Assembly: GCA_037039925.1 (NCBI GenBank)
Contig: JAXRKP010000337.1
Coordinates: 41,001-105,000, forward strand
DNA length: 64,000 nt
Direction: 5' to 3'
Origin: Doris montereyensis
Taxonomy: Eukaryota > Mollusca > Gastropoda > Nudibranchia > Dorididae
This document shows positions 4,268 to 63,290 of this stretch, in pieces. Below the pieces are notes generated by a model. It ran no database searches. It saw only the letters and a list, made by a program, of their open reading frames with translations, and was not told the origin of the DNA. Position 1 is the stretch's first letter. Each line of letters begins with the position of its first letter. The position numbers were made by a program, and so were the translations under genes.

Positions 4268-4575
4268 GGCTTTTTCTTTTATATTTCATTTCATTTGCCC
4301 ACATTCACCATTAAGGCGATCAGAGAGGTTTTGATAGGATTTTTCTTCTTGTTAGAACTGTCCTGTATACAGTCAAGGCATCTTTAACGTGCACAGAGTG
4401 TTTTGATCTGCACACATGACCTCCTTTTTTATCGTCCATATCCCATTGGTCATAATATTATGACAGCTTTACGTACCTAACCCCAAAATAACTCAACAAA
4501 ATTATTCAACCAGTCGGGTACGAATCCACTACCCTTTGGTTGAGAGCCCGACACCTCACCTCTAGACCATCGAGT
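4268..4575 (-). mobile_element. tRNA-derived SINE (family 1)
   Basis: Read on the minus strand, it begins with a tRNA-like head: GGGGACTCGATGGTCTAGAG, then CTCTCAACCAAAGGGTAGTG and a B-box-like GGATTCGTACC. A body follows, and it ends in an A-rich tail near 4,268-4,298. The region 4,298-4,385 (CCACATTCACCATTAAGGCG on the plus strand) is shared with 62,846-62,950, and the head is shared with 53,757-53,840. The neighbouring 60-bp array repeats the first 20 bases of this SINE. Confidence 0.75.
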
Positions 4576-7500
4576 CCCCTTGATGGAAAGTAGCAATATA
4601 CCAGATTGAAACAAGTTACCTCTAAACTATCGAGTCCCCTTGATGGACAGTAGCAACATACCAGATTGAAACAAGTTACCTCTAAACTATCAGAGTCCCC
4701 TTGAGTCCCCTTGATGGACAGTAGCAACATTCCAGATTGGAACAAGTTACCTCTAAACTATCGAGTCTCCTTGATGGACAGTAGCAACATACCAGATTGG
4801 AACAAGTTACATCTCTAAACTATCGAGTCCCCTTGATGGACAGTAGCAAGATACCAGATTGGAACAAGTTACCTCTAGACCATCGAGTCCCCTATATAGA
4901 AAATAGCAACATACCAGATTGAAACAAGTTACCTCTGAACAATCGAGTCCCCTTCATGGACAGTAGCAACATACCAGATTGGAACAAGTTACCCTACCAT
5001 CGAGTCCCCTTGATGGAAAGTAGCAACATACCAGATTGGAACAAGTTACTCTACCATCGAGTCCCCTTGATGGACAGTAGCAACATACCAGATTGGAACA
5101 AGTTACCTACCATCGAGTCCCCTTGATGGACAGTAGCAAGATACCACATTGGAACAAGTTACCTCTAGACTATCGAGTCCCCTTGATGGAAAGTAGCAAC
5201 ATACCAGATTGGAACAAGTTACCTCTAAACTATCGAGTCCCCTTGATGGAACAAAAGTAGTCCCCAACATACCAGATTGGAACAAGTTACCTCTAAACTA
5301 TCGAGTCCCCTTGATGGAAAGTAGCAACATACCAGATTGGAACAAGTTACCTCTAAACTATCGAGTCCCCTTGATGGAAAGTAGCAACATACCAGATTGG
5401 AACAAGTTACCTCTAGACCATCGAGTCCCCTTGATGGAAAGTAGCAACATACCAGATTGGAACAAGTTACCTCTAGACCATCGAGTCCCCTTTGATGCAC
5501 AGTAGCAATATACCAGATTGGAACAAGTTACCTACCATCGAGTCCCCTTGATGCACAGTAGCAATATAACAGATTGGAACAAGTTACCTCTAGATCATCG
5601 AGTCCCCTTGATGGAAAGTAGCAACATACCAGATTGGAACAAGTTACCTACCATCGAGTCCCCTTGATGTACAGTAGCAATATACCAGATTGGAAGAAGT
5701 TACCTCTGAACAATCGAGTCCCCTTGATTGACAGTAGCAAGATACCAGATTGGAACAAGTTACCTCTGAACAATCGAGTCCCCTTGATGGAAAGTAGCAA
5801 CATACCAGATTGGAACAAGTTACCTCTGAACCATCGAGTCCCCTTGATGGACAGTAGCAACACACCAGATTGTATCAAGTTACCTCTGAACCATCGAGTC
5901 CCCTTGATGGACAGTAGCAATATACCAGATTGGAACAAGGTAGTCCCCTCTAGACCATCTAGACCATCGAGTCCCCTTGATGGTTACCTCTAGACCATCA
6001 GTCCCCTTGAGCAGTAGCATACCAGATTGGAACAAGTTACCTCTAGACCATCGAGTCCCCTTGATGGAAAGTAGCAAGATACCAGATTGGAACAAGTTAC
6101 CTCTAGACCATCGAGTCCCCTTGATGGACAGTAGCAAGATACCAGATTGGAACAAGTTACCTCTAGACCATCGAGTCCCCTTGATGGAAAGTAGCAACAT
6201 ACCAGATTGGAACAAGTTACCTCTAGACCAGAGTCCCCTTGATGGAAGTAGCAACATACCAGATTGGAACAAGTTACCTCTAGACTATCGAGTCCCCTTG
6301 ATGGAAAACAACATACCAGATTGAAACAAGTAGACCATCGAGTCCCCTTGATGGACAGTAGCAAGATACCAGATTGGAACAAGTTACCTCTGAACCATCG
6401 AGTCCCCTTGATGGAAAGTAGCAACATACCAGATTGGAACAAGTTACCTCTATACCATCGAGTCCCCTTGATGGAAAGTAGCAACACCAGATTGGAACCT
6501 ACCTCTAGACCATCGAGTCCCCTTGATTTAAAGTAACAACATACCAGATTGGAACAAGTTACCTCTAGACCATCGAGTCCCCTTGATGGAAATAGCAATA
6601 TACCAGATTGGAACAAGTTACCTCTAGACCATCGAGTCCCCTTGATGGAAAGTAGCAACATACCAGATTGGAACAAGTTACCTCTAGACCATCGAGTCCC
6701 CTTGATTTAAAGTAACAACATACCAGATTCGAACAAGTTACCTCTGAACCATCGAGTCCCCTTGATGGAAAGTAGCAACATACCAGATTGGAACAAGTTA
6801 CCTCTAGACCATCGAGTCCCCTTGATGGAAAGTAGCAACATACCAGATTGGAACAAGTTACCTCTAAACTATCGAGTCCCCTTGATGGAAAGTAGCAACA
6901 TACCAGTTTGGAACAAGTTACCTCTAGACCATCGAGTCCCCTTGATGGAAAGTAGCAACATACCAGATTGGAACAAGTTACCTCTAGACCATCGAGTCCC
7001 CTTGATGGAAAGTAGCAACATACCAGATTGGAACAAGTTACCTCTAGACCATCGAGTCCCCTTGATGGAAAGTAGCAACATACCAGATTGGAACAAGTTA
7101 CCTCCATCGAGTCCCCTTGATGGAAAGTTACCTCTAGACCATCGAGTCCCCTTGATGGAAAGTAGCAACATACCAGATTGGAACAAGTTACCTACCATCG
7201 AATCCCCTTGATGGAAAATAGCAACATACCAGATTGGAACAAGTTACATCTAGACCATCGAGTCCCCTTGATGGAAAGTAGCAACATACCAGATTGGAAC
7301 AAGTTACCTCTGGACCATCGAGTCCCCTTGATGGAAAGTAGCAATATACCAGATTGGAACAAGTTACCTACCACCGAGTCCCCTTGATGGAAAGTAGCAA
7401 TATAACAGATTGGAACAAGTTACATCTAGACCATCGAGTCCCGTTGATGGAAAGTAGCAATATACCAGATTGGAACAAGTTACATCTAGACCATCGAGTC

Positions 7501-7878
7501 CCCTTGATGGAAAGTAGCAACATACCAGATTGGAACAAGTTACCTCTAGACCATCGAGTCCCCTTGATGGAAAGTAGCAACATACCAGATTGGAACAAGT
7601 CACCTCTAGACCATCGAGTCCCCTTGATGGAAAGTAGCAACATACCAGATTGGAACAAGTTACCTCTAGACCATCGAGTCCCCTTGATGGAAAGTAGCAA
7701 CATACCAGATTGGAACAAGTTACCTCTAGACCATCGAGTCCCCTTCATGGAAAGTAGCAACATACCAGATTGGAACAAGTTACCTACCATCGAGTCCCCT
7801 TGATGGAAAGTAGCAATATACCAGATTGGAACAAGTTACCTCTGGACCATCGAGTTTCCCTGATGGACATTAGCAACA
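4550..7878. repeat. minisatellite B, about 60-bp unit, seeded at a SINE end
   Basis: About 55 units. Parts of the unit: CTCTAGACCATCGAGTCCCC, TTGATGGAAAGTAGCAACAT, ACCAGATTGGAACAAGTTAC. The first part is the reverse complement of the 5' end of the SINE at 4,268-4,575, and the first unit runs directly out of that SINE. Units are very similar in 6,600-7,800 and more broken (deletions, partial units) before 6,550. Open frames on both strands are repeat translations. Confidence 0.97.
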
Positions 7879-8804
7879 TAAGAGATGAAGAAATTACTGT
7901 CAGATTTCATCTTCGAGAGCAGTAACATTCTCATAACCCTTTTTTCATACGTAAAAATAAATGTACATAAATTTGGAATATTATTTCCTGATAATAAGGT
8001 AAAAATATTTAATGATGAAGAAAGAAATCAAATTCTTAGAATGATAGTGATAGTGATAACACATAATTTCGAGAGAAAAAATTATGGATAAACTAGACCA
8101 TAATAAAAAATAACTATGACGAAGAATAAGTATTGGTTTGAATGACGCTAAAGATATGTTATAGAAAGAAAGTTGTACTATTATTCTTAATGCTACTATT
8201 TTTATTTATAGTTGTAGGAAAGGAAGGGGATCGGGCCCCTACTACTAACATATTCTTTTCTGTAATAAAAAATACCATTTTTACATAAGAACGATATATG
8301 CTATTTTATAAAATTCATTTTTTTTTAAATTATCCAAAATATCTGAAAATCCCTAAGTCATTCTTTACATGTTGAATGGAAAAAAACGATCTGCACAGGT
8401 GTTGAGTTATTTTTTCCTATTAATTTTCCTATAGACTTTTCAATGGATTCTTTGGAAATTTGGCATGTACATGCTTGGTATCAGGAGTAAGCTCTCTACA
8501 CAGTTGAATATGTCCTTTTTTTCATATCTTAAAGACTCTGAGAAATTCATGACTTTTGGTGCAAAATTGAGAAAAAAAATGTTTTTTCCTAACCTCCATT
8601 TTTGAAATTTTGTCAATCAAAACACTTTTCAAGATATAAAAAAAATCGATGCGAGAATGCAATGACATCGGTTTGAAGTTTCTACATGCAAAACTATAAA
8701 CACCTTAAACGAAACAAAGGTTGCAAAATTGCAAAAGACAACAACAAACAAACAAACAAAACCCAAGTTTGATACAGAATAGCCTTGGTACCAATCAGCG
8801 TTCA
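7879..8804. other. AT-rich unique sequence
   Basis: No exon, RNA gene or transposon could be supported. It contains several short A and T runs. Confidence 0.5.
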
Positions 8805-9475
8805 GTGGCCCTCTCTGGCTAATGACGTAATAGCTTTTTGGCTAATGACGTAATAGCTCTTTGGCTAATGACGTAATAGCTCTTTGGCTAATGATGTAAT
8901 AGCTCTTTGGCTGATGATGTAATAGCTCTTTGGCTAATGATGTAATAGCTCTTTGGCTAATGATGTAATAGCTCTTTGGCTAATGATGTAATAGCTCTTT
9001 GGCTAATGACGTAATAGCTCTTTGGCTAATGATGTAATAGCTCTTTGGCTAATGACGTAATAGCTCTTTGGCTAATGATGTAATAGCTCTTTGGCTAATG
9101 ATTTAATAGCTCTTTGGCTACTGATGTGATAGCTCTTTGGCTAATGATGTAATAGCTCTTTGGCTAATGATGTAATAGCTCTTTGGCTAATAACGTAATA
9201 GCTCTTTGGCTAATGATGTAATAGCTCTTTGGCTAATGGTGTAATAGCTCTTTGGCTAATGATGTAATAGCTCTTTGGCTAATGACGTAATAGCTCTTTG
9301 GCTAATGACGTAATAGCTCTTTGGCTAATGATGTAATAGCTCTTTGGCTAATGATGTAATAGCTCTTTGGCTAATGATGTAATAGCTCTTTGGCTAATGA
9401 TGTAATAACTCTTTGGCTAATGATGTAATAGCTCTTTGGCTAATGATGTAATAGCTCTTTGGCTAATGATGTAGT
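8805..9475. repeat. minisatellite C, 23-bp unit
   Basis: About 28 copies of a unit containing TAGCTCTTTGGCTAATGATG and TAA. The main variation is GATG versus GACG (a CpG/TpG site), so part of the diversity looks like deamination of a methylated CpG. Confidence 0.97.
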
Positions 9476-9519
9476 CGGCTGTCGTTTTCCCCAACCCTTC
9501 TGTCAATACTACTTTTTAT

Positions 9520-9740
9520 TATTCCCAATCAGGTTGTGAAAACCATTATTTCATTTTCCAAACCTGCTGTTGGGAATACTGCTAAATCTACTCTTTCTTA
9601 TTCCCAACCGGGTGTTGGGAATACTGCTAAATCTACTTTTTCTTATTCCCAACCGGGTGTTGGGAATCCACGCAAATGTACCTCTTTTTCTTATTCCCAA
9701 CAGAAAGTTGTGAATACACTTTTTTCTTCTTATTCATAAC
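9520..9740. repeat. foldback repeat cluster (TTCCCAAC...GTTGGGAA)
   Basis: About four to five copies of a roughly 40-bp unit. Each carries an inverted pair TTATTCCCAAC and GTTGGGAATA around a short loop, followed by CTGCTAAATCTACT. Related hairpins recur at 10,200-10,280, 12,665-12,830 and 13,745-13,770, so this is a dispersed short foldback family that is locally tandem here. Confidence 0.75.
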
Positions 9741-9744
9741 CGTT

Positions 9745-10032
<288 letters not shown>

Positions 10033-10819
10033 TCTACTGTCACTATTATTATAGGTTACGATCATAGATCTGTAACTTTATCAACTATCTCGGGAAGTCG
10101 CGGCTATCATCCGGCAGTTTCTTGTTAAATGTATTTTGTGCTAGTATTAGATTTGATTTTGATTTGATATACGTCTTTGATAGGTATATGGTTGGAAATA
10201 ACAAAAAAGGAGTAGATCTATTCCCAACACCCGTTTGGGAATAATAAAAATTCTTATTCACGTCACGGTTGGGAATAATCACTTCGAAAGTAATAACGTC
10301 CTGAGTCACGCTTTCAAACGATTTCCAAGAAACGAGAAACGATCGTATAGAACTACAGGCAGGATACGCTCAATAGTTATACTAACAAAATAATCTAGAA
10401 GGTATCGATTATTATGTTTATCAACGAAAACAAATACTGTAATGCTTCCGTTTGACTCTATTTACCATAGATTTACATGTTTAAGAAAGACATTATCTGA
10501 CATGATTCAGATAACTCCCAACGGTAGTGTTCGTTTTACTAAGTAGGTACCGCATGCTGTTTCTGTTTGTTGCAACACTGGACAAACATTTTTTGTGGTA
10601 TCGAACATGATGACTCCAACTAATGAGGGGAAAAGTAAGAGGTTTGCCAGTTACGCAATTTTGAGGCAAAATTTTAAAAAGATTTGAAAGGATTTTGAAA
10701 AAAAAAACAACTCTCTTTGCGATTCTATGACAAATACGAAGGAAACGACATTGAGTGGTATTAAAGCCCCATAGGAACAAAGACGAAACAAATACAAGAA
10801 ATATCCAGAAAAGAACCTG
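10033..10819. other. unique sequence with two foldback-repeat copies
   Basis: The foldback family appears near 10,218-10,245 (ATTCCCAACACCCGTTTGGG) and 10,265-10,280. No gene is supported. Confidence 0.5.
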
Positions 10820-10912
10820 TCCACCATGAGGATCGAATCCACGACCTCTGCGTCGGCACCCAACGCCAAGCCAAGAAAGGAAAGCGTGCTACCAACCGAG
10901 CTAACTTCACAC
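10820..10912 (-). mobile_element. tRNA-like SINE head or tRNA pseudogene
   Basis: On the minus strand it contains an A-box-like TTAGCTCGGTTGGTAGCACG and a B-box-like GTGGATTCGATCC. About 50 bases separate the two boxes. That is too long for an ordinary cloverleaf and there is no clean anticodon stem. A tRNA-derived SINE fragment is more likely than a working tRNA gene. Confidence 0.55.
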
Positions 10913-11927
10913 TATGACAAACACGTGTAGAAGTACTTCGATAAAAATGGACATATTGGAGATATATTTTTATGTATATTTTAGACGCATATGTTGGGGG
11001 CAGGTATATTTCATGGCAACGGTGACGATCTACATTTCTTGATTAAACCAAGATAATTTTATCATCGAACTTTCTTGGCCTAATAATTGGGGATTTTGAC
11101 TGTAAATCCGGGTTTTTGTGAAAAAAATATTTTCATTTACATAGATCTATGCATGATTTTTATTTATTAATTTGAATATTTTTCATAGTGGTTCTAACGC
11201 AGTGAAAATATTGTCGTGCCAAGTTTTAGGTTTTGAGGCATCATTTTTATTGTTCAAACATATCAAACGCCATGAGGTGGGCCCAACGAAACAGAATACT
11301 TCTATCTCGCGTGGGTGGGTCCAACGCCTTCTATGTATAAATTACTATAAAGGATAAAGCTCTAGGTGATTTGGTGGGTCACAAAGTCATCAAGAAGAGA
11401 TGTTGTAACTTAAGAGTTTTCAAACTTTACTTCACGTGTGCTTCCTATTTTATTTATTGCAAAACAAACTGTTCCCAAAGATAATTCCTTTCATTCCATT
11501 GCGAAGTTGGCAGTATGGCAAGTAAGATATGTATTGAACATTGACAGTTTTAGGCTCTCTTCCCCGATATCTTCCTCCTCCCTCCCCACCCCATACTCTC
11601 CGGATTTTTGGTGGGTCATAAATTTTATTTTGGCATTACAACTGAAAAATATCAGACAATATTCCTTCACTTGTTCTCTGAACTTCCTTATTCTTTTACG
11701 CCGCTAAACTGTAAAATTATCATTTGCCTAGAATTGAGATCTAGATCTAGGTTTATTATTATTATTATTAGTATAGCTAGATCTGATTTGTTTATTAAAA
11801 ATAACTTTTAGTTATGTCTTCTGTTGACCACATAGCATTGTTATAAGTTCATAAATGATCGTTGGGGTTACTATTGATAATTTCTAGATCTAGATCAGTC
11901 AGGAGTGGATCTGGATCTAATGCGACT
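10913..11927. other. region upstream of deltex exon 1, no clear promoter motif
   Basis: AT-rich unique sequence with a short (ATT)n near 11,755-11,770 and AGATCTAGATCT-type palindromes near 11,736 and 11,884. No TATA box or 5'UTR exon can be assigned with confidence. Confidence 0.4.
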
Positions 11928-41059
<29,132 letters not shown>

Positions 41060-46292: not shown

Positions 46293-46347
<55 letters not shown>

Positions 46348-47444: not shown

Positions 47445-47995
47445 GCCTGTTACTACTCTTCTTAGATATTTCATTTCAGCTGCCTGTACTCTACTGTATT
47501 CTCTACTTCTCTTCTTAGATATTTCATTTCAGCTGCCTGTACTCTACTGTATTCTCTACTTTCTTCTTAGATATTTCATTTCAGCTGCCTTCTTAGTATT
47601 CTCTACTTCTCTTCTTAGATATTTCATTTCAGCTGCCTGTACATTACTGTATTCTCTACTTCTCTTCTTAGATATTTCATTTCAGCTGCCTGTACTCTAC
47701 TGTATTCTCTACTTCTCTTCTTAGATATTTCATTTCAGCTGCCTGTACTCTACTGTATTCTCTACTTCTCTTCTTAGATATTTCATTTCAGCTGCCTGTA
47801 CTCTACTGTATTCTCTACTTCTCTTCTTAGATATTTCATTTCAGCTGCCTGCACTCTACTGTATTCTCTACTTCTCTTCTTAGATATTTCATTTCAGCTG
47901 CCTGCACTCTACTGTATTCTCTACTTCTCTTCTTAGATATTTCATTTCAGCTGCCTGTACTCTACTGTATTCTCTACTTCTCTTCTTAGATATTC
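47445..47995 (-). repeat. 53-bp minisatellite made from LINE coding sequence
   Basis: About ten units. On the minus strand each contains GAATACAGTAGAGTACAGGC, AGCTGAAATGAAATATCTAA and GAAGAGAAGTAGA, encoding EYSRVQAAEMKYLRREVE. This is the segment after ETWTLDSR in the LINE C-terminus, in the same orientation as the LINE it adjoins. Confidence 0.95.
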
Positions 47996-48481
47996 CATTT
48001 CGGCTGCCTGCACTCTACTGTATTCTCTACTGTCTAAAGTCCAGGTTTCGCTGCCATAGAGGAGAGTAAACCAATAAACTGTGTTGTATACTACCATTTC
48101 GGTTTTTGTTGACAATACTTGCTTACCTACAAATGCCTTTCCTAGATAGTTATATATTGCACTTGTCTTTTTGATTCTCTGGCTGATTTCTTCTCTTAGT
48201 TTTCCCTCTGAGTTAATCATTACTCCTAGGTAATAGTAGCTGTCAACTTGTTCTAAACTCTCCCTACCCAATTTAAGATTTTGTGTTTTGGCTTCCCTAG
48301 TTACTAGCATTGTTTTGGTTTTCTTTGCATTTACTCTCATTCCTCTTTTATTTAGTTCATTGTTCATAATATTGATATTCGACTGAAGGTCATTTTCTGA
48401 TTTTCCAAACAGAACTAAATCATCAGCAAATGAAAGCATTGATACATTTACTGGTTTGAGCTTCCACATACCTTCATTCAT
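47942..48481 (-). mobile_element. truncated RTE-like LINE (RT palm to C-terminus), frame open
   Basis: An uninterrupted frame of about 179 residues starts MNEGMWKLKPVNVSMLSFAD and includes FADDLVLFGKSENDLQSNIN (the catalytic F/Y-x-D-D box), YYLGVMINSEGKLREEI and LLYGSETWTLDSREYSRVQA. It matches the LINE at 21,215-24,540 but has fewer disabling changes. The 3' side is replaced by the 53-bp array and the 5' side by the 41-bp array. Confidence 0.88.
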
Positions 48482-51400
48482 TTCTGATAGATTAGATTAG
48501 AAGGTAAAGAGAGATCTTTAATAGAAGGAAGATTAGATAAGAAGGTAAAGAGAGATCTTTAATAGAAGGCAGATTAGATTAGAAGGTAAAGAGAGATCTT
48601 TAATAGAAGGCAGATTAGATTAGAAGGTAAAGAGAGATCTTTAGTAGAAGGCAGATTAGATTTGAAGGTAAAGAGAGATCTTTAATAGAAGGCAGATTAG
48701 ATTAGAAGGTAAAGAGAGATCTTTAATAGAAGGCAGATTAGATTAGAAGGTAAAGAGAGATCTTTATAGAAGGCAGATTAGATTAGAAGGTAAAGAGAGA
48801 TCTTTAATAGAAGGCAGATTAGATTAGAAGATAAAGAGAGATCTTTAATAGAAGGCAGATTAGATTAGAAGGTAAAGAGAGATCTTTAATAGAAGGCAGA
48901 TTAGATTAGAAGGTAAAGAGAGATCTTTAATAGAAGGCAGATTAGATTAGAAGGTAAAGAGAGATCTTTAATAGAAGGCAGATTAGATTAGAAGGTAAAG
49001 AGAGATCTTTAATAGAAGGCAGATTAGATTAGAAGGTAAAGAGAGATCTTTAATAGAAGGCAGATTAGATTAGAAGGTAAAGAGAGATCTTTAATAGAAG
49101 GCAGATTAGATTAGAAGGTAAAGAGAGATCTTTAATAGAAGGCAGATTAGATTAGAAGGTAAAGAGAGATCTTTAATAGAAGGCAGATTAGATTAGAAGG
49201 TAAAGAGAGATCTTTAATAGAAGGCAGATTAGATTAGAAGGTAAAGAGAGATCTTTAATAGAAGGCAGATTAGATTAGAAGGTAAAGAGAGATCTTTAAT
49301 AGAAGGCAGATTAGATTAGAAGGTAAAGAGAGATCTTTAATAGAAGGCAGATTAGATTAGAAGGTAAAGAGAGATCTTTAATAGAAGGCAGATTAGATTA
49401 GATTAGAAGGTAAAGAGAGATCTTTAATAGAAGGCAGATTAGATTAGAAGGTAAAGAGAGATCTTTAATAGAAGGCAGATTAGATTAGAAGGTAAAGAGA
49501 GATCTTTAATAGAAGGCAGATTAGATTAGATTAGAAGGTAAAGAGAGATCTTTAATAGAAGGCAGATTAGATTAGAAGGTAAAGAGAGATCTTTAATAGA
49601 AGGCAGATTAGATTAGAAGGTAAAGAGAGATCTTTAATAGAAGGCAGATTAGATTAGATTAGAAGGTAAAGAGAGATCTTTAATAGAAGGCAGATTAGAT
49701 TAGAAGGTAAAGAGAGATCTTTAATAGAAGGCAGATTAGATTAGAAGGTAAAGAGAGATCTTTAATAGAAGGCAGATTAGATTAGAAGGTAAAGAGAGAT
49801 CTTTAATAGAAGGCAGATTAGATTAGAAGGTAAAGAGAGATCTTTAATAGAAGGCAGATTAGATTAGATTAGAAGGTAAAGAGAGATCTTTAATAGAAGG
49901 CAGATTAGATTAGATTAGAAGGTAAAGAGAGATCTTTAATAGAAGGCAGATTAGATTAGATTAGAAGGTAAAGAGAGATCTTTAATAGAAGGCAGATTAG
50001 ATTAGATTAGAAGGTAAAGAGAGATCTTTAATAGAAGGCAGATTAGAATTAGATTGGAATAGAAGGTAAAGAGAGATCTTTAATAGAAGGCAGATTAGAT
50101 TAGATTAGAAGGTAAAGAGAGATCTTTAATAGAAGGCAGATTAGAATAGAAGGTAAAGAGAGATCTTTAATAGAAGGCAGATTAGAGATTAGAAGGTAAA
50201 GAGAGATCTTTAATAGAAGGCAGATTAGATTAGAAGGTAAAGAGAGATCTTTAATAGAAGGCAGATTAGATTAGAAGGTAAAGAGAGATCTTTAATAGAA
50301 GGGATTAGATTAGATTAGAAGGTAAAGAGAGATCTTTAATAGAAGGCAGATTAGATTAGATTAGAAGGTAAAGAGAGATCTTTAATAGAAGGCAGATTAG
50401 ATTAGATTAGAAGGTAAAGAGAGATCTTTAATAGAAGGCAGATTAGATTAGATTAGAAGGTAAAGAGAGATCTTTAATAGAAGGCAGATTAGATTAGAAT
50501 AGAAGGTAAAGAGAGATCTTTAATAGAAGGCAGATTAGAATAGAAGGTAAAGAGAGATCTTTAATAGAAGGCAGATTAGAATAGAAGGTAAAGAGAGATC
50601 TTTAATAGAAGGCAGATTAGAATAGAAGGTAAAGAGAGATCTTTAATAGAAGGCAGATTAGATTAGAAGGTAAAGAGAGATCTTTAATAGAAGGCAGATT
50701 AGATTAGAAGGTAAAGAGAGATCTTTAATAGAAGGCAGATTAGAATAGAAGGTAAAGAGAGATCTTTAATAGAAGGCAGATTAGATTAGAAGGTAAAGAG
50801 AGATCTTTAATAGAAGGCAGATTAGATTAGATTAGAAGGTAAAGAGAGATCTTTAATAGAAGGCAGATTAGAATAGAAGGTAAAGAGAGATCTTTAATAG
50901 AAGGCAGATTAGATTAGATTAGAAGGTAAAGAGAGATCTTTAATAGAAGGATTAGATTAGATTAGAAGGTAAAGAGAGATCTTTAATAGAAGGCAGATTA
51001 GATTAGATTAGAAGGTAAAGAGAGATCTTTAATAGAAGGCAGATTAGATTAGAAGGTAAAGAGAGATCTTCAATAGAAGGCAGATTAGATAAGATTAGAA
51101 GGTAAAGAGAGATCTTTAATAGAAGAAGGCAGATTAGAATTAGATTAGAAGGTAAAGAGAGATCTTTAATAGAAGTAAAGAGAGATCTTTAATAGAAGGT
51201 AAAGAGAGATTTTAATAGAAGGTAAAGAGAGATCTTTAATAGAAGGTAAAGATTAGATCTTTAGATTAGAAGGTAAAGAGAGATCTTTAATAGAAGGCAG
51301 ATCTTTAATAGAAGGTAAAGAGAGATCTTTAATAGAAGGTAAAGAGAGATTAGAAGGTAAATTAGATTAGAAGGTAAAGAGAGATCTTTAATAGAAGGTA

Positions 51401-52886: not shown

Positions 52887-53431
52887 TCATACACAATGTT
52901 TCTTAGAATGGAATTCTGAAAAGCAGCGAGTAATGCATAATGCCACCTTGCAGACAGCACACCAAAACAGTGTCTCTTTTCGAAATCTTGATGTGCGAGT
53001 TATCGCCGTTGAGCCGAAGAGGTTTTTTCTCCATCTCTGCACACTTTGCAAATTCTGTAGGGTTTTTGCTTAGAAGCAGTGCTGGGAATGTTCTCACCAA
53101 AGTGTGTGTGAAGAGCAGTAGAGGGGTTGGGCGCTGGGGTTGGAGGAATTGCGATGGGCACGGCTGATCGGTTCAGCCACTCAGCTTTGGGTCGATGAAA
53201 GTTGTCGGTGATTTCTCCTCCCAGCTGAATGAGATATTCCCGAACTGTTAGCTGTTTTGTTCGAAGCAGTGCCATTTTTTTTATTGAAGAGAATTCTGGT
53301 GACGATAGGTCGTGACCTCGCAAGATGTCGCCTAATTTCCGACGTCGGCAGCACCCGGCAGGCGCTAGCGGGTGCATTAGGCAGGATGCCGAAAAGGGTT
53401 TTAGCGAGCGCGTCAGGCAGGATTGGGTTAA
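52887..53431 (-). pseudogene. piggyBac transposase C-terminal remnant with element end
   Basis: On the minus strand: an end at TTAA (53,428-53,431) with CCCAATCCTGCCTGACGCGC and two subterminal GC-rich repeats. Then coding remnant LTVREYLIQLGGEITDNFHR, PKAEWLNRS, HFGENIPSTASKQKPYRICK and VCRDGEK. After frame changes comes FWCAVCKVALCITRCFSEFH, SKKHCV, stop at 52,887-52,889. C-x-x-C---L-C---C-F---(Y/F)-H is the cysteine-rich domain that ends piggyBac transposases. The catalytic domain is missing. The second terminal repeat was not found. Confidence 0.75.
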
Positions 53432-53433
53432 GG

Positions 53434-53688
53434 CCTATAGAGCCAGAGCTTATCCCGGATCTTATAGCATGAAACGAAACAGGTGACAATAATCACCTCC
53501 TGGCCAGGACGCTAGTCTGACACAGGTATTTACTCCCAAGCTAGTGCGTGTACCCATTTGCACCTAGGTAGAGTGGGGGAAATGCGTGTTAAGTGGCTTT
53601 CCCAAGGAACACAACGTCGGACCTGGCTTTGCTAGGATTCGAAATAGGGACCTCATGACCTAACCGTTCGGCCACCGACACCACATGG
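53434..53688 (-). mobile_element. tRNA-derived SINE (family 2), nearly complete
   Basis: On the minus strand it starts GGTGTCGGTGGCCGAACGGT (A-box), with GGTCATGAGGTCCCTATTTC and a B-box-like TTCGAATCCTAGC. A central part contains TTGGGAAAGCCACTTAACAC and CTAGGTGCAAATGGGTACAC, and it ends GATAAGCTCTGGCTCTATAG. The head looks Leu/Ser-tRNA-like. It abuts the TTAA end of the piggyBac remnant. Confidence 0.78.
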
Positions 53689-53756
53689 TACTTCCATTAA
53701 TGTACGTATAATTATAATTACTAGTTACATAAAATGTAATTATTAGTTTTGTAAAC

Positions 53757-54487: not shown

Positions 54488-54600
54488 TTTGAAATTTACC
54501 CCGTCCACCATTGCGGTGACCTCAGGGTGAATTAAGATAAAGCAGCAAGATAAGTGAAAGAAGGAAAGGAAAGAAGCAGGACCTACCAGCAGTGCCCACT
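54488..54600 (+). mobile_element. SINE-like dispersed repeat (family 3)
   Basis: TTTCTTTGAAATTTACCCCG, TCCACCATTGCGGTGACCTC and CAGCAAGATAAGTGAAAGAA, then GGACCTACCAGCAGTG. Confidence 0.7.
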
Positions 54601-54763
54601 AACCACCCACATGAAATTTAGAATTTGATCAGTCTTTGTCTTCTTTGTCTGACACGTTACGGTAGCACAGTACAATCTACCTTTTGTCTGAGATACTCAA
54701 AAAGGTACAAGAGGTGACTGCTGTTACTGTAATGAGGACTTTCCTACCCACCATATAGGGGAG

Positions 54764-54905
54764 ATGAACAAAACACCTCACCACCCACACTGGATACACG
54801 CATACACAGAAACAAAAGGAAGGATCCTATCGGGAATGATTTTTAAAAACTCACCACCCACACTGGATACACGCATACACAGAAACAAAGGAAGGATAAC
54901 TCCCT
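54764..54905. repeat. direct repeat, 2 copies of about 70 bp
   Basis: ACTCACCACCCACACTGGAT-type blocks with ACACGCATACACAGAAACAA, separated by GGATCCTATCGGGAATG. Confidence 0.85.
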
Positions 54906-55159
54906 TTAACTCATTACGGTTTACCCGGCCGAAAACGGCCACATGCTAGACAGCCTGAGCCAGCCGTGTTTAACCTGACCGCCCACCAACTGCTTCCCAT
55001 TGGTCAAGCCGGCCAAACCCAGCAGTGCATAACACCATCTCTTTCAACGATCAGATTGGCTCGGCAAACCTATTTTTGTTCCTTATTTTAAGCGTTATTA
55101 TTTCTAGAAAACTGATCCGTCCACTTAAGCCTCTTTCTGAAACTAAAGGTCATGACCCT

Positions 55160-55290
55160 AGTGTGCTATGGTGCTGATAGGTCCCATTTTTCCTTTCCTT
55201 CTTTTCCCTATTTTTCATCTTGCTGCTTCCTCTATTTCACTCTGAGATCACCATCATGGTGGACGGGTAAAGTTCAATCAATGAAACAAA
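55160..55290 (-). mobile_element. SINE-like dispersed repeat (family 3)
   Basis: TTTCATCTTGCTGCTTCCTC and ACCATCATGGTGGACGGGTA match the copies at 37,725 and, inverted, 54,488 and 60,355. Confidence 0.7.
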
Positions 55291-56725
55291 CAAATCACTT
55301 TCCACAAAGCCTGACATTGATCATATTTTTATCTACCGCCCTGCCTTTGTTCAACAGTATTAACATATATATTTCATCATTCTGCTTCAACCGTCCACGT
55401 ATTCTGCTTTCGTTTTTATTTTTATCAATAGTGACACGGAGAGAAAGGAATCCTTTTGCTAACGGCATCCATCAGAAGCGCACAGGAAGCTTAGAAAATA
55501 TAAAACACACACCGATCTGGTTGAGGGGAAATTAAATCTAGGTCAGTGCCTTCCGGTCAGGGAATCTACACATTAATAACTTATGGTAAATATAAAAAAA
55601 TCTGCCGAAGGCTGATCTTTCTGGCGAAATGTGCCAGTCGTTTTGCCAATTCAGAATGGTGCCTCTTGACTTTCACACCGATATATCACAATGTCTGCAC
55701 TTGCAGACAAAAGAAACCTACACAATATGTTTTTTTACGTACTGGTCAGCGGCTATATGAATTAAATGAAGCACTTGGCAACCAAACAAACAAAAACATT
55801 ATCTCCCTCAACACACACAGACACCAATCAAAGCTCTGGCGTTTTTAAAATGATGGGAAGGGAAGGGACGCAATGGATTGGAATTAAAAATCAATAAATG
55901 AAAATTCATGCAAGGGGGCAAGTTCAAGCAAAGCTCAGCAACACAGAAAATGTTTAAGAACTAAAATTAAAAATCTTTTTTTTCCATCCCAGATTCTAAA
56001 GCTTTGATGATCGTTTTCAAACCAAATTCATGGCGTTGAGAGAGACAAAGAACTTTGTTCTAAATCTAAACATGACTGCAAACCTGCTTACATTTCCATG
56101 ATCTAGTTTCAGCACAAAATTCAAAACTAGGTTTGTGACCAATGACCTAGTCGTGAATAACAGGGTTAGACTTGGATCTTCCATAAATTGGCTTTTTATT
56201 TGCTAAACCTTCTAGCGTGTATGACTTGACTTGACTTGACTTGACGTTACGATGTACTGGGGCCGGGGGGGCTGGGATGCCTTTGGACAAGTAACTTTTA
56301 CGTTGGTCTAAATGTAACACAAAACAGCTCACACTTTTACTCACGCAATAGACTGAAAGTACAATGTGATGATTCCCATTTTTTAAACATAAAATTTCCG
56401 TAAATATTTGCTGTTAAAGACAACCTTTCTTCAAAACATATTCAATAATAAACAATACATGCCTATTGCGTTTAATTCAACAATAATAAAACTTTGCACA
56501 CAAAAAATGCACACAAAAAATAAAAGAACAATCCCAAAAACCCAAACAAACCTCAAGGCCCTAACACGTCTTCTACTAATTCTAGGTCAACAAATGTTGA
56601 CAGTCAGGAAGCGCCCCCTTCTTTGAGTTCGCTTAATGCAAGGCCTAACAGAGCACTGACTCATCACCTATTCAACTCTTCCTTCATAGAATAAATTACT
56701 AGTTCTATGACACTGATGACGGGAT
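55291..56725. other. intergenic sequence, no supported gene
   Basis: Open frames of 60-120 codons exist (for example near 55,546-55,848) but show no family resemblance, no strong splice signals and ordinary composition. A short (TTGAC)n run lies near 56,223-56,245. Confidence 0.45.
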
Positions 56726-56729
56726 AACA

Positions 56730-57185
56730 AAATACAAAATTTCTTACCACACGCATCAAAACAAATTTCTTACCACACGCATCAAAACAAATTTCTTACC
56801 TCACATATTAAAACAAATTTCTTAACTCACGTACCATAATAAATTTCTTACCTCATGTATTAAAATTAATTTCTTACCACACGTATGAAAACATATTTCT
56901 TACCACACGTATCATAATAAATTTCATATTAATTAAAACAAATTTCTTACCTCACGTACCATAATAAATTTCTTACCTCACGTATTAAAACAAATTTCTT
57001 ACCCCACTTATGAAAAAATAATTTCTTACCACACGTATGAAAACAAAATTTCTTACCACATATAAAAACAATTTCTTACCATACGTATCAAAACAAAATT
57101 TCTTACCACATATCAAAACAAATTTCTTACCACACGTATGAAAACAAAATTCTTATCCCACGTATCAAAACAAAATTTCTCAACA
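56730..57185. repeat. degenerate 26-bp minisatellite
   Basis: About 17 units of AAATTTCTTACCACACGTAT plus CAAAAC, with ACCTCACGTATT variants and partial units. Confidence 0.9.
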
Positions 57186-57625
57186 TTATTATCACAAACC
57201 CACACAATCTTTCTTTTTCAACGGGAAAAAACCAAAATGCAATTTTGTGGAGAGACCATCAACCAACAAACGACACATCCTTAACACTTGCTATCAGTCT
57301 GACATGATACGGTGAAATGTTTCCCTAGAGAGAAACTGTTTGTAGTGTAAGTTTGTAGCAAGTTTGTAACAATTTTTGCAGGAAACGGCAGACATACACT
57401 GTCACTGTCAGACTTGGCTACTTCCCAAAGATCTCAATTATAAATATAAAACTTGTATACAACATTTATCTAAGTTGCAACCATGCATCCATCAGTCATG
57501 CCCAGTTTGCATATTCACCATATATATAATATATGATCACAATTTATTTGTAAGCGGTTTTGTTCTGTCATATATCTCTCTCCTCTCCCTTTTACCAACA
57601 GTGTATTTGTGTCTGGATGTGGATG
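57186..57625. other. sequence downstream of the minus-strand gene
   Basis: TTTATT at 57,543-57,548 is AATAAA on the minus strand, about 430 bp after the stop of the minus-strand gene. It is a possible poly(A) signal. Nothing else is seen. Confidence 0.35.
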
Positions 57626-57629
57626 GGAG

Positions 57630-57752
57630 AGCGGTAGAGATGGAGGGAGGGGGGAGAAAGGTAGAGAGGGAGGGGGGAGAGAGGTAGAGAGGAGGGAGGG
57701 AGAGAGAGAGAGAGAGAGAGAGGAGGGAAGGAGAGAGAGGGAGGGAAGGGAG

Positions 57753-57814
<62 letters not shown>

Positions 57815-57935
57815 AGGGAGAGAGGGAGAGACAAACAGAAAGAACGAGTGAGACTGAGGAACTGAGACAGATAAAGGAAAGAGAGAAACTGAGAGACACA
57901 CACACACACAGACACACACACACAGAAACAGAGAG
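57630..57935. repeat. GA-rich and CA microsatellite
   Basis: GGGAGGGAGAGA-type purine tract to about 57,840, then ACACACAC near 57,896-57,925. Confidence 0.96.
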
Positions 57936-57979
57936 TGGAGAAGAGTGTTTTGCCTTTCACCACCAGGCAAGCCAACTCA

Positions 57980-58103
57980 TCATAGCATCAGGGTGTTCAG
58001 GTAATACTGCTTGTGATGAAGGACTTCACAAATCTCCCGTGACGACTGTTGGACGCTACTCTCCACTTTGTTCCACACCAGGCGTTCCGCTTCCCCTGTT
58101 ATA
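57980..58103 (-). CDS. minus-strand gene, terminal exon D
   Basis: TTGCAG acceptor; the first base completes an AG-T serine codon; then 40 codons ITGEAERLVWNKVESSVQQS and SREICEVLHHKQYYLNTLML, then TGA at 57,980-57,982. Confidence 0.8.
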
Positions 58104-61100
58104 CTGCAAGGCATGCAATAAAAACAACGGCCAGTCACAAATATGACTACAATAACAACAAATCAAAGATGTTTTACCACCACATACTGTGATCTCAGGA
58201 TGAATTGAACCTCTGGAGTATGGGACTTACTTTATTTTACTTTTTATAATCATAAACATTAACCCTTAACCCGCTAAGCCATTTCGCTCCCTACGTAATC
58301 CCCAGTGCTAAAGTATTTTTAATGAAATTTCATGAAATTTGAGGTTTTATATGTAAAAAATCATAACTTTTTAACCACACATGATAAAGCAATGAAATTT
58401 TCAGGATTGCCAGAGGGATGAACAAGCTACATATCAAAATGATTGGATATGTAAATTAGGTCACATGACAATGGCGTAAGCACTTGTTCTTCTAAGACCT
58501 GAGCTGCATATCTGTTTGTTTCCTCCCTGACAGTATCAATTACTATAACAAGACAAAACAGTTTGAAAAAAGCCAGAGGCTTGTCTTCTGCCTCCATATC
58601 TGGATCAGTTGTTATATTTTGGGGCCCTATCTGATTTGGATTAAAATCCATGATCCATTCTCTAGAATAAAAGCTTCATCTTCACTTAGAATCTCCCAAT
58701 TCCACTCATGATCACCAGTAACACGTCTCCTCCCAGAAATTGAAGCTCTATTTATATTAGTACTATTGCCACTGTCACCCGCTTCATCAACGATGTTTTG
58801 ATTTGGATGGCTTGAACTAGATCTAGAATTATCTGTTTCGTGAAAATATTCATCTCCTGAATCAGCATCATGCTGATAAATGTTATTGTCATCATCGGAT
58901 TCCATGTCAGAAATGTAAACAAACGAATAACTGGTAAACGCCAATAAAAGAGCTAAAAAGATCAATAGATTTACGAATTTGATGTAAAAAAATTAGAAAG
59001 GAAGTGTAACGTGTCAAGCCAAGGGAGGCTACTCCCGTAAACTAAATCTACGCACTTTTTAGTATTCCCTCTTTAAAAGAGGTCTATTATAGAATCGCCT
59101 TTTAGCAAGCTCAGCATTCAGCCTACCTACCGGAACACTCGCCTGTTGGCAATGTTAGCGGGTTACGGGTTAAAGAGAAACAAGAAACAATTCGATCTTT
59201 CCTTGGCAAATCAGTTTCAATTATTTCATTCACAACGAAAGTGAAAATCCTCCTCTCCTCGCCTGAAAATGTTAAAAATCCACACCAAATTTACCTCTTC
59301 CTCCTCTGGGAAATTCGCCAATCTAAAGGAGGTCGTGTCCAGAGCGGAAAAGACGGATCTAGGCCTGATGCAATCTGATGGAGTTCTTTGGTGATGGATG
59401 ACAGTTCCTTGACTAAGTGGTTGAAATTTTCAAATGTGCTTGGCTGTGGCACAAAGGAATAAGAACACAATTTTAATCACATTTGCAACTAAAACGAAGA
59501 AAAAAAGGAAGAAAAAAAGTCATGGCTGTGTAACTTTCTTTTAAATCCATATATTCTTTTGTGTTATATTCTTTGTGTTATATTCTTGCACATTCTTAAT
59601 GATTTCAAACACAAGACACATTACGCAAACTCAAGCACAAGGCTCAAATCTAGCTTTACAATATCAAATTTCATTTCTCAAATTTATCTCTAATGAATAC
59701 TGGGATCAGTTTACAAAGCAACAGAAATAAAAAAAATTTAGACACTAATAAATCTTGCCACAGGAAAGTTAGAGAACAACGCTTAAGTTAAAGAGTTCAA
59801 TTAAATCAAACAGACATGGAAAATCCTTCAAGAATGTTCTCATTGACCATTGGTACAAACATCAGAATCAATCAGCAATTTCATAATTCTTCCTTCCACG
59901 TGTCTCGATATAAAAAAAGCAATGGCTCTGATGATAACCCTTAAGCGTTTAAACAGACAAATGCAAAACCTCTGCTAAAAGTTACAAACGACAGAAACAG
60001 ACAAATGCAAAACCACCGCTGAAAGCTCAAAAACGACAGAAACAGACAAATGCAAAACCCCGTTGAAAGTTCAAAACGACAGAAACAGACAAACGCAAAA
60101 GCTCCGCTGAAAGTCCAAACGACAGAAACAGACAAATACAAAACCCCCGTTGAAAGTTCAAAACGACAGAAAACAGACAGCTGCCAGTACAGGCCCACAT
60201 TGTTCCAAGCTGACAGAAAACGACAAGTGACACACCTCCTGTTTTGTTAGCTCTGATTGGTCACACAAATGATGCTATTGTTCTAAATTTAGAATAGAAC
60301 ACAAGATTAAAAAGTCAGTCAGGGAGAATTGAGAAGGGAACTGACTGATTGTGATGGATTAGATTGAAATTTACCCTGTCCGTCATATGCGGTGATTTCA
60401 AGGTAACTTCAGATAAAGCAACCAGGTGAAAAACATGTGAGTGAGAAAAAGAACAGAAGTAGGTACTACCAGCAGCATCCTCCAAACTGCCAGTAAGAGA
60501 AAAAGGAAACAGCAAGATGGAAGACACAAAGAACAGAAGTAGGTACTACCAGTAGTGTCCTCCAAACCGTCAGTAAGAGAAAGAGGAAACAGCAAGATGG
60601 AAGACACAAAGAACAGAAGTAGGTACTACCAGTAGTGTCCTCCAAACTGTCAGTAAGAGAAAGAGGAAACAGCAAGATGGAAGACACAAAGAACAGAAGT
60701 AGGTACTACCAGTAGTGTCCTCCAAACCGTCAGTAAGAGAAAGAGGAAACAGCAAGATGGAAGACACAAAGAACAGAAGTAGGTACTACCAGTAGTGTCC
60801 TCCAAACCGTCAGTAAGAGAAAAAGGAAACAGCAAGATGGAAGACACAAAGAACAGAAGTAGGTACTACCAGTAGTGTCCTCCAAACTGTCAGTAAGAGA
60901 AAGAGGAAACAGCAAGATGGAAGACACAAAGAACAGAAGTAGGTACTACCAGTAGTGTCCTCCAAACTGTCAGTAAGAGAAAGAGGAAACAGCAAGATGG
61001 AAGACACAAGAACAGAAGTAGGTACTACCAGTAGTGTCCTCCAAACTGTCAGTAAGAGAAAGAGGAAACAGCAAGATGGAAGACACAAGAACAGAAGTAG

Positions 61101-62619
61101 GTACTACCAGTAGTGTCCTCCAAACTGTCAGTAAGAGAAAGAGGAAACAGCAAGATGGAAGACACAAGAACAGAAGTAGGTACTACCAGTAGTGTCCTCC
61201 AAACTGTCAGTAAGAGAAAGAGGAAACAGCAAGATGGAAGACACAAAGAACAGAAGTAGGTACTACCAGTAGTGTCCTCCAAACCGTCAGTAAGAGAAAG
61301 AGGAAACAGCAAGATGGAAGACACAAGAACAGAAGTAGGTACTACCAGCAGTGTCCTCCAAACCGTCAGTAAGAGAAAGAGGAAACAGCAAGATGGAAGA
61401 CACAAAGAACAGAAGTAGGTACTACCAGCAGTGTCCTCCAAACCGTCAGTAAGAGAAAGAGGAAACAGCAAGATGGAAGACACAAAGAACAGAAGTAGGT
61501 ACTACCAGCAGCATCCTCCAACCGACCTGGACAGGAAGAGGAAAAGCAAAGCAAAGCAAAGCAAATTAAGACACATACCAGAATACACATCTACTGATCA
61601 TCCATGACAAAAGACAAGAATAACATACCATAATACTGTGACATAACAAATGTAACAAAACACATAACTTGCTCAAAATCATTCAATAGAAGCTTACTTG
61701 GGGTTTGACGTATTCTTGTTTTTCTTGGACTTCTTGGACCAGACTGATTTGAGTGGTTTCAAAATCTATTGCACACTCCCGTCAAAAGTGTTACATAGGA
61801 TATAGACTGGAGAAGACAAAAAAAAACTCGTCAAAAGCGTTACATAGAATATAGACTGATGAAAAAACAAAAAAACTACTGTCAAAAGTGTTACATAGGA
61901 AGGGGGGCTGCAATGTTTTGAAAGGAGATCTCAGAAAAACAGAAAAATGAAAGACATTCCAACTTTTCATAAATCGACGGTGAAAGTCGCAAGCCGTGCA
62001 GTCCAAATTTTAGATGTTTTGAGAAAATCAAAGAAAATGATAATGTGCATTTTAAACTATTTTCACAAACATACACGGATTGCAAGTGTCAAAACCTAGA
62101 CCCAATAGGGATACACGGACTGCAAGTGTCAAAACCTAGACCCAATAGGGATACACGGACTGCAGTCAAAATTGACTCATACACGGATTGGTTATTGTAT
62201 GGGTTTCTATTGGTTCTTGTATCACAGAATCCTAACTAGACGAAGCATACGGGTTTCCTAATGTTAAAAAATCAGACAAAAAGGTGTTACTAATTTTAGA
62301 CTAACACGGTTTGACACGGTTTGCGACTTTCACTATGCAATATATGCTTGTGATTATAACCCTACCCCTCTCCACACACTCACACTCACCCACACACACA
62401 CACCATGTCTGACTTCAATAAATAAGTAAAAAGTTGAACACATATAGCCAGTAAAACAATTGCCATGGTTGCATGTATTTATATATGAAACTTTATGACA
62501 AATCCAAAGCAACAACGCTCACCTCTACAGACGCAACTAATTGTTCTAAAGCTGTGGAATCAAGCTGCCTTTGCCGTTGATGTCTTTAAGTAAACCCTGA
62601 ACGTCTTTGGCAATTAATT
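57980..62619 (-). CDS. unrecognised helical protein, last four exons (5' end missing)
   Basis: Exons in coding order: 62619-62523, 61765-61698, 59443-59295, 58103-57980. All have GT-AG junctions. C-terminal part of about 145 residues: KDVQGLLKD, QRQRQLDSTALEQLVASVE; FETTQISLVQEVQEKQEYVK; PSTFENFNHLVKELSSITKE, LHQIASGLDPSFPLWTRPPL, DWRISQRRK; ITGEAERLVWNKVESSVQQS, SREICEVLHHKQYYLNTLML, stop. Phase agrees exactly at the exon C-D junction (2 to 1) and at B-C (0). The first two exons each need one extra base to keep the frame. Rich in Q, E, L and K, probably mostly helical or coiled coil. I do not recognise the family. The start is probably to the right of the window. Confidence 0.72.
58259..59173 (-). 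mobile_element. piggyBac deletion derivative with TTAA sites and inverted ends
   Basis: TTAA (58,259-58,262), CCCTTAACCCGCTAA, 0.9 kb, TTAGCGGGTTACGGG, TTAA (59,170-59,173). The 15-bp inverted ends differ at one base. Inside is a transposase N-terminal fragment on the minus strand, starting near the right end. It lies in the last intron of the minus-strand gene. Its ends differ from those of the 24,943 and 53,431 elements, so it is a second piggyBac family. Confidence 0.88.
58427..58905 (-). pseudogene. piggyBac transposase N-terminal fragment, frameshifted
   Basis: Starts MESDDDNNIYQHDADSGDEY (acidic N-terminus). A one-base loss near 58,640-58,650 then moves the frame to DFNPNQIGPQNITTDPDMEA and FFKLFCLVIVIDTVREETNR, YAAQVLEEQ. 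The D-P---F--F---L-x-x-I-V---E-T-N-R-Y-A block is the start of the DDE_Tnp_1_7 domain. The catalytic part is deleted after LEEQ, so it cannot encode a transposase. Confidence 0.82.
59295..59443 (-). CDS. minus-strand gene, exon C
   Basis: GTGCCACAG acceptor, GTAAAT donor, 149 bp, phase 0 to 2, 49 open codons: PSTFENFNHLVKELSSITKE, LHQIASGLDPSFPLWTRPPL, DWRISQRRK. Confidence 0.8.
59444..59939. other. intron of the minus-strand gene, first part
   Basis: AT-rich unique sequence; nothing recognised. Confidence 0.5.
59940..60185. repeat. about 53-bp direct repeat, 5 copies
   Basis: Units with ACGACAGAAACAGACAAATG, CAAAACC and TGAAAGTTCAAA. Copies differ by several bases. Confidence 0.92.
60355..60480 (+). 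mobile_element. SINE-like dispersed repeat (family 3)
   Basis: TTGAAATTTACCCTGTCCGT, GCGGTGATTTCAAGGTAACT and GATAAAGCAACCAGGTGAAA, running directly into the 80-bp array. Confidence 0.7.
60450..61520. repeat. 79/80-bp minisatellite extending from the SINE-like repeat
   Basis: About 13 near-identical units: AGAACAGAAGTAGGTACTAC, CAGTAGTGTCCTCCAAACTG, TCAGTAAGAGAAAGAGGAAA, CAGCAAGATGGAAGACACAA. The GTAGGTACTACCAG part matches the end of the family 3 repeat (GCAGGACCTACCAG at 54,575). Confidence 0.97.
61698..61765 (-). CDS. minus-strand gene, exon B (one base short)
   Basis: Acceptor GCAATAG, donor GTAAGC. Open frame FETTQISLVQEVQEKQEYVK plus PQ ends in phase 0, as exon C needs. Entering in phase 0 from exon A requires one more T in the ATTTTG run at the exon start. 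Confidence 0.65.
61777..61905. repeat. direct repeat, about 2.5 copies of 50-55 bp
   Basis: GTCAAAAGTGTTACATAGGA and TATAGACTG blocks followed by A-rich spacers. Confidence 0.85.
62065..62165. repeat. 39-bp direct repeat, about 2.5 copies
   Basis: ACACGGATTGCAAGTGTCAA plus AACCTAGACCCAATAGGGAT. Confidence 0.9.
62166..62522. other. intron of the minus-strand gene
   Basis: Unique sequence with a CACA-rich stretch near 62,375-62,402. Nothing else recognised. Confidence 0.5.
62523..62619 (-). CDS. minus-strand gene, exon A (one base short)
   Basis: TTCACAG acceptor, GTGAGC donor. The frame begins LIAKDVQGLLKD and, after a one-base change near 62,580-62,586, continues HQRQRQLDSTALEQLVASVE to the donor in phase 0. 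Without the shift it stops after IPQL. Confidence 0.62.
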
Positions 62620-62834
62620 CTGTGAAGAGAGAGAGAGAAGGAGACAAAATGGGTCGTATTAATTTGGGAAGAGTAATCAAAGTCGTAACACAGTGTAGAT
62701 CAACTGTCGCTAAGACAGGAAGTAACAGGGAGATAACAGACAGGAAGTAAAAACAAAGAGCAAAGAGACGCACATTTGAAATGAGACACCATCAACAGTA
62801 GGGTGTAGGTTGTAGCATGTTAGATTTTGATTTG
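62620..62834. other. intron or upstream region of the minus-strand gene
   Basis: Unique; no further exon could be assigned. Confidence 0.4.
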
Positions 62835-62950
62835 ATTTGATTTCTCCACATTCACAACTGAGGCGATCTCGGGGGTTTTGGTAGGATTATTTCTATGTTA
62901 AATTTTGCCCCGGACTGCCCTGTAGACAGCCAAGGGATTATTATCTATAA
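62835..62950 (-). mobile_element. SINE family 1 tail fragment
   Basis: CCACATTCACAACTGAGGCG and GGGGTTTTGGTAGGATTATT match 4,298-4,385. The A-rich tail on the minus strand is (AAATC)n, here TTTGATTTGATTTGATTT. Confidence 0.72.
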
Positions 62951-63290
62951 CTGTAGATTGCCCGAATGCCCTGTAGACAGCCAAGGGATCATTATCAATA
63001 ACTGTGGATCCAGACAGCCATTATCAAGGGATTAATAACTGTGGATTGCCCGGAATGCCCTGTAGACAGCCAAGGGATCATTATCTATAACTGGGGATTG
63101 CCCGGAATAGACAGCCAAAGGGATCATTATCAATAACTGTGGATTGCCCGGACTGCCCTGTAGACAGCCAAGGGATCATTATCTATAACTGTGGAATTGT
63201 AGACAGCCGAATGCCCTGTAGACAGCCAAGGGATCATTATCTATAACTGCCCGGACTGGAGCCAAGGGATCATTATCTATAATCAATTGG
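62890..63290. repeat. about 52-bp array grown from the SINE interior
   Basis: About seven irregular units of GCCCTGTAGACAGCCAAGGG, ATCATTATCTATAACTGTGG and ATTGCCCGGA. The first unit is the SINE itself. Several units are broken or nested. Confidence 0.92.

Follow-up and report, generated by a model that had tools for sequence, protein, structure and literature searches.

Minisatellites derived from transposable elements (TEs) have been surveyed in the human genome, where they represent 23% of minisatellites (Ahmed and Liang, 2012; PMC3389668). In that survey, TE-derived arrays grow by local duplication, 300 of them begin at direct repeats of 5-20 bp, and 136 repeats of partial Alu sequence adjoin an Alu, which is attributed to the Alu 5' end. 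In the model of Haber and Louis (1998), a unit flanked by direct repeats of 5-10 bp is duplicated by slippage or unequal crossing-over (cited in PMC3389668 and PMC6947457), and Jurka and Gentles described Alu-derived minisatellites seeded by short direct repeats in the transposon (cited in PMC3389668). Both the origin of minisatellites from TEs and slippage at repeats of 5-10 bp have, in short, been described before. The origin of the first 25-100 bp duplication is still open, the two known initiation models covering 6% of the human TE-derived cases (PMC3389668). In this study, we analysed a stretch of 64,000 bases from the nudibranch Doris montereyensis (GenBank assembly GCA_037039925.1, 513 Mb in 3500 contigs; contig JAXRKP010000337.1, C2635:41001-105000 in our numbering), hereafter the window. 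An earlier note had proposed that at least eight minisatellites in it were born from nameable genes and transposons. Our results indicate that minisatellites here are likely to arise in place, by microhomology-guided local duplication followed by stepwise expansion.

Compared with the human survey (PMC3389668), the difference is that unexpanded copies in the same genome make the birth junction readable here. The Haber and Louis model fits the arrays derived from a long interspersed element (LINE) and from a DNA element, whose parent units have direct repeats of about the required size at their borders (9 bp in the LINE, or 5 in copy L008, and 7 bp in the DNA element); arrays derived from short interspersed elements (SINEs) have shorter homology, about 1-2 bp by eye. 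The Alu case of Jurka and Gentles (cited in PMC3389668) likewise involves short direct repeats, here found in other elements and in another animal. We observed unexpanded relatives of several seeds, direct-repeat junctions in the LINE and the DNA element, signs of stepwise expansion, and no enrichment of dispersed repeats among the seeds. The density of arrays and the supply of unexpanded relatives are useful in that initiation can be studied by counting: where many TE copies are unexpanded and few expanded, the number of junctions can be related to repeat length and spacing and compared with a zero-homology null.

Birth junctions in a LINE and a DNA element

The array at 47451-48031 (minus strand) is made of 53-bp units of LINE reverse-transcriptase sequence and is followed by the 5'-side part of the LINE remnant (48032-48488, minus strand), which carries RVT_1 (Pfam) and is 87% identical to the second LINE copy of the window. 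This second copy (21217-24291, minus strand) aligns without expansion at the matching site (21548-21667). The proposal that LINE coding sequence seeded the array is thereby upheld, since RVT_1 adjoins it and unexpanded copies exist. Thirteen LINE copies, seven of which were chosen for their resemblance to the junction, align straight through the unit once, five partial copies not being counted. Unexpanded parents were also found for the DNA element (locus L016) and, by alignment, for the SINEs. In the unexpanded LINE copies L006, L007 and L008 we read CCCTACTACTC and, 53 bp further on, CTACTGTC. In the 563-bp majority sequence of the LINE 3' end, built from six copies, TTCCCTACT (9 bp) occurs twice at a spacing of 53 bp, the same as the length of the array unit. 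No other direct repeat at a spacing of 25-100 bp is longer, and a length of 9 bp is reached in 10 of 36,518 junction cells.

Genome-wide, a 32-base junction pattern allowing up to three mismatches gave 27 matches, distributed as eight in the window array, one at C2635:136312, three in C2823, nine in C3279 and six single ones. The six single matches carry three mismatches and are of the unexpanded type; C137, the one that was read, is unexpanded. Arrays with the TTCCCTACT junction are present in three LINE copies, namely the window array with its half at C2635:136312, C2823 and C3279, the last with 15.2 units of 53 bp directly after LINE sequence. The units of C3279 and C2823 clearly differ from those of the window. 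A fourth LINE copy, in C83 (L002), uses another junction at the same offset, for which one array and one stray match with three mismatches were found. Ahead of TTTCA or ATTCA, most of its 13 matched units have ATA and two have AGG, which would fit a pairing between two imperfect repeats at a distance of 53 bp. A shorter, 26-base pattern with up to two mismatches occurs at 2,403 places. From the 100 of them listed and from L027 and L029-L036, we infer that most are unexpanded LINE copies, because two mismatches convert the pattern to the unexpanded form. An exact 26-base match in C1652 was rejected as a birth, being a single-copy LINE variant. The eight near-junction copies L029-L036 were likewise discarded; Tandem Repeats Finder (TRF) detected no array in them, and seven align straight through the site and L030 in part. 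As a separate observation, LINE stretches at 19438-19899 and 22161-22850 are inverted relative to each other and 82-87% alike.

The second case is a dispersed DNA element at 34540-35430, 69% identical to L016 over 34540-35124. Between its ATTTAG-type repeats lies an array of 53-54 bp units (35133-35408), 90% identical to L016, and the unexpanded L016 copy carries ATTTAGA twice, 53 bp apart. This 7-bp repeat bounding the unit ranks in the top 0.11% of junction cells. The array had been placed in the interior of a mariner-like element; the dispersed element is confirmed by L016, the array is located near the element end, and the name mariner is unproven.

Arrays seeded by SINEs and by an exon

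At 4283-4580 (minus strand) the window holds a single copy of a tRNA-headed SINE, with relatives aligned in the sampled loci L009, L012, L013, L016 and L019. Its 5' end adjoins an array of 60-bp units (4558-7880, TRF), each combining about 22 bp of the SINE 5' end with upstream flank. In a search of the genome, 40 of 3773 candidates were scored. Among these, foreign SINE matches begin at query position 59 or beyond (window position ~4582 or lower), with one exception at 42 (C660), and the unit of flank and SINE head is found only at the window locus. The SINE 5' end thus stands as the seed. By eye, the birth junction shows about 2 bp of homology (GT). This array resembles the human partial-Alu repeats beside an Alu (PMC3389668). 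Occurrence at a single locus among scored candidates is not proof of uniqueness, because a comparable LINE search (40 of 3356 scored) failed to bring up the C3279 array that the junction pattern revealed.

Two further arrays of the window were traced to SINE sequence. Downstream of a SINE-like repeat (60364-60447, plus strand, by sequence comparison), 80-bp units at 60448-61521 (TRF and comparison) cover the 3' end of the repeat and run into the flank, as the proposed seed at 60.45 kb implied; core units of this array have common bases that are absent from the first and last units. At 62924-63249, beside a SINE 3' part (62830-62923, minus strand, by comparison), 46-58 bp units (TRF) carry, by alignment, the SINE core and flank of a 5'-shortened SINE, in agreement with the SINE seed suggested at 62.9 kb. 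Outside the window, L022 carries a separate SINE-derived array, and the copy of a second SINE family in L026 ends in a 37-bp array. This family, with a tRNA-like head by eye, is represented at window 53427-53684 and in L009, L011, L013, L018, L023, L024 and L026. Homology at the junctions of the 4.55-, 60.45- and 62.9-kb arrays and of those in L022 and L026 is about 1-2 bp by eye.

A coding exon was also used. A deltex RING exon, recognised as two separate pieces by its match to DTX1 and DTX2 RING structures in PDB, spans 28238-28455 (plus strand) and ends at a GT donor; an array of 57-bp units (28405-28652, plus strand, 4.4 copies, TRF) contains the exon end and the splice donor, and is followed downstream by about 124 copies of a 28-bp unit (28650-32129, TRF). 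The PDB matches corroborate the exon end as seed, "exon 7" being the label of the earlier note. This case is relevant as an exon end with its splice donor amplified into an intron. The duplication is probably old and was amplified later, because the three intronic copies share six differences from the exon copy and differ from each other by one to three. An open reading frame (ORF) at 40,806-41,021 reads by eye like what we take to be the deltex C-terminal domain, in which case the arrays in between would lie in deltex introns.

Two proposed seeds fared less well, so that six of the eight (4.55, 28.46, 35.1, 47.4, 60.45 and 62.9 kb) stand. The 50-bp array at 27244-27632 (TRF) had been derived from a SINE tail; there is a tRNA-like stretch at ~27,080-27,155 by eye, and 27,040-27,243 has no match in loci L002-L026. 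At 25651-26044 a GC-rich repeat block (block A, TRF) had been assigned to piggyBac subterminal repeats, a name resting on that assignment and on TTAA seen by eye. Block A is related to window 53361-53422 (81% over 62 bp).

It would be possible to regard the arrays as members of dispersed satellite families carried by transposons, their local birth being illusory. We consider this very unlikely. Some arrays do seem to travel with an element: tandem units of 65-69 bp lie at the matching end of three LINE copies (window 24292-24492, L012 6880-7010 and L025 6568-6701), and these units probably belong to the LINE as 5' monomers and were not born locally. Moreover, L010 consists entirely of one 197-bp satellite, L014 mostly of related short units of the GCGATAAAGAGC type in both orientations, and, as the missed C3279 array illustrates, scored lists can overlook foreign arrays. 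Against this, no scored candidate other than the window locus carried the 4.55-kb unit, LINE junction arrays occur at three places as opposed to the 2,403 matches of the shorter pattern, and the C3279 and C2823 units are clearly unlike those of the window. In the two arrays tested (4558-7880 and 47451-48031), neither unit was found at many unrelated loci. Birth in place is further supported by the absence of the 4.55-kb unit from every other scored place and by the unexpanded relatives of the LINE array, as local amplification had predicted.

Seed choice

To ask whether dispersed repeats are special seeds, we compared 73 arrays (period 20-150, at least two copies, L010 and L014 left out) with equal-length non-array segments in 20 replicates, scoring as a match any BLAST hit (E 1e-3) to TRF-masked DNA more than 300 bp away. 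No enrichment of arrays in dispersed repeats was detected: 12 of 73 arrays had a match, versus a control mean of 13.1 of 73 (range 8-21). This comparison gives no support to transposons and other dispersed repeats as preferred seeds, and the notion that they are special was rejected, the match rate being that of non-array DNA. The count of 12 is generous, because at least three of the matches (L011 6299, window 25887 and window 26705) fall within their own repeat zone, and it is also an undercount, because BLAST failed to catch the SINE seeds at 4.55 and 62.9 kb. Exon seeds are represented by the single deltex case, which gives no rate.

Array growth and proposed mechanism

In nine of 11 arrays, units separated by the longest lag were on average less identical than units at lag 1 (no significance test was applied), as expected if arrays expand stepwise. 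The length of an array modulo its period was considered as a measure of birth homology and judged unreliable, as array edges decay.

A complex case lies between block A and a second array of 56-58 bp units (array B, 26705-27030, TRF). In the mosaic zone that separates them (26045-26555), piece matching assigned about 392 of 511 bases to pieces of 9-45 bp that match block A, array B or the flank at 26556-26704, while 20 shuffles gave 0-56 bases; these figures correspond to 412 of 531 minus 20 bases of overlap between the scanned zone and its source. Between 26131 and 26540, nine of 14 switches between A and B abut, with a mean overlap of 2.44 bases versus 0.83 in the null (0 of 500 replicates reach it). 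The excess microhomology in this zone and the short-direct-repeat junctions agree with the proposal of the earlier note that slippage or break-repair copying generated the arrays.

We propose that a replication or repair fork may change template at a short word that recurs some tens of bases away, the matching words being 5-9 bp long in the LINE and DNA-element cases and about 1-2 bp in the SINE cases. Such a switch would duplicate the segment between the words. Later expansion would be uneven and drawn out, adding single copies as well as blocks. The seed would not be chosen: dispersed repeats serve at about the rate at which they are met outside arrays, and the deltex array took in an exon end together with the splice donor. 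Replication slippage or microhomology-mediated template switching is inferred in preference to unequal crossing-over, and the SINE cases presumably share the mechanism of the LINE and the DNA element. Homology probably guided some births and was weak in others.

Several observations count against this proposal. The homology of the window LINE is 5 bp when measured on copy L008, and reaches 9 only in the majority sequence, the latter figure being the more favourable one; on L008 alone, 8.7% of the 207 positions at spacing 53 reach 5 bp. The C83 junction has 1 bp by strict count. The junction counts cover a single zero-homology control and a single high-homology junction: arrays were found in three LINE copies for the 9-bp junction and in one for the 1-bp junction first seen in C83, while the zero-homology junction (spacing 48) had no match genome-wide, a result on the side of the proposal. 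The arrays of C2635, C2823 and C3279 may also share one expanded LINE ancestor. The DNA element also contains two longer pairs that went unused (13 bp at spacing 100 and 11 bp at spacing 85), and the SINE junctions, at about 1-2 bp by eye, are near the chance mean of ~0.8 taken from the 563-bp LINE region. The mosaic zone could be an assembly chimera, and at five of its 14 switches the pieces are separated by 2-10 unmatched bases. Finally, unit identity is higher at distance in two of the 11 arrays (8.8 and 41.1 kb) and near flat in the one at 28.7 kb.

These facts leave some room for births by tandem duplication at blunt or staggered breaks, with homology irrelevant and the LINE case a coincidence or one inherited array. 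The 1-2 bp of the SINE junctions and the 8.7% of positions that reach 5 bp at spacing 53 in the one copy scored speak for this explanation, which we nevertheless regard as unlikely: the LINE unit coincides, in three diverged copies, with the highest-ranking repeat pair anywhere in the 563-bp region, and the DNA element, with its 7 bp, agrees with a direct-repeat birth. Microhomology-guided duplication accordingly remains our preferred reading.

A possible rearrangement of the LINE array and assembly quality

At C2635:136080-136580, a LINE 3' part is followed by two units with the derived junction of the window and then by other DNA, in inverted orientation. On the window side, other DNA is followed by eleven units and then by the LINE 5' part. 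Window 47451-48488 and L037 (C2635:136275-136640) thus represent complementary LINE halves with a common 53-bp array, inverted 47 kb apart, and both ends of the split LINE are cut. In the simplest reading, a single LINE with a single array was divided by a 47-kb inversion that broke within the array; the inversion may be real or assembler-made.

The latter option raises the question of whether part of the pattern is an assembly artefact, a collapsed or chimeric consensus. The split LINE and the mosaic zone at 26045-26555 would both be compatible with it, and the deltex exon requires two reading frames, which denotes either a frameshift in the assembly or a pseudogene. In addition, runs of 2500 or 7500 N are present in three sampled loci (L015, L017 and L018). 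Such an artefact seems improbable to us all the same, as units within arrays differ from each other and form higher-order patterns (TRF), and one LINE junction recurs on three contigs. Of note, eight of 20 sampled contigs are sized as multiples of 2500.

A broader version of our preferred reading, local birth by microhomology, is conceivable though doubtful. Microhomology-guided template switching might be pervasive, converting any sequence, exon ends and splice donors included, into minisatellites that fill about one third of the genome. Thousands of similar transposon copies would then form a built-in assay of birth against repeat length and spacing, and arrays would act as breakpoints, as in the LINE apparently split by the 47-kb inversion.

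Tandem content of the window and the genome

TRF classified 33,360 of the 64,000 window bases (52%) as tandem, in 51 merged arrays, and 32,185 bases have a period of at least 10; the window arrays far exceed chance expectation. Large arrays lie at 0.0, 28.7, 35.9, 37.9, 41.1 and 48.5 kb. For comparison, we sampled evenly numbered contigs from position 20,001 onwards; of 20 contigs asked for, two were too short, which left 18 stretches. Contigs below 20 kb are absent from this sample, N is excluded from percentages and no length weighting was applied. On average, 33.1% of these loci is tandem (bootstrap 19-49%), with an upper median locus at 34.6% and a span from less than 1% to 100%. The figure of 33%, which comprises all arrays, stands against ~0.32% of the genome for TE-derived arrays in human (PMC3389668), the two measures being different. 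The sampled average, together with the arrays in L022, L026 and three further LINE copies, is in line with minisatellite growth as a general habit of this genome.

Other searches of the window returned little. No Rfam family matched at the gathering threshold, no tRNA was found by ARAGORN with bacterial settings, and in Pfam searches on ten ORFs RVT_1 alone passed the cut-off, in two ORFs. A GA-rich block at 17456-18290 is followed by a TC-rich one at 18343-18767 with similar unit sizes (TRF), the pair resembling a large degenerate inverted repeat.

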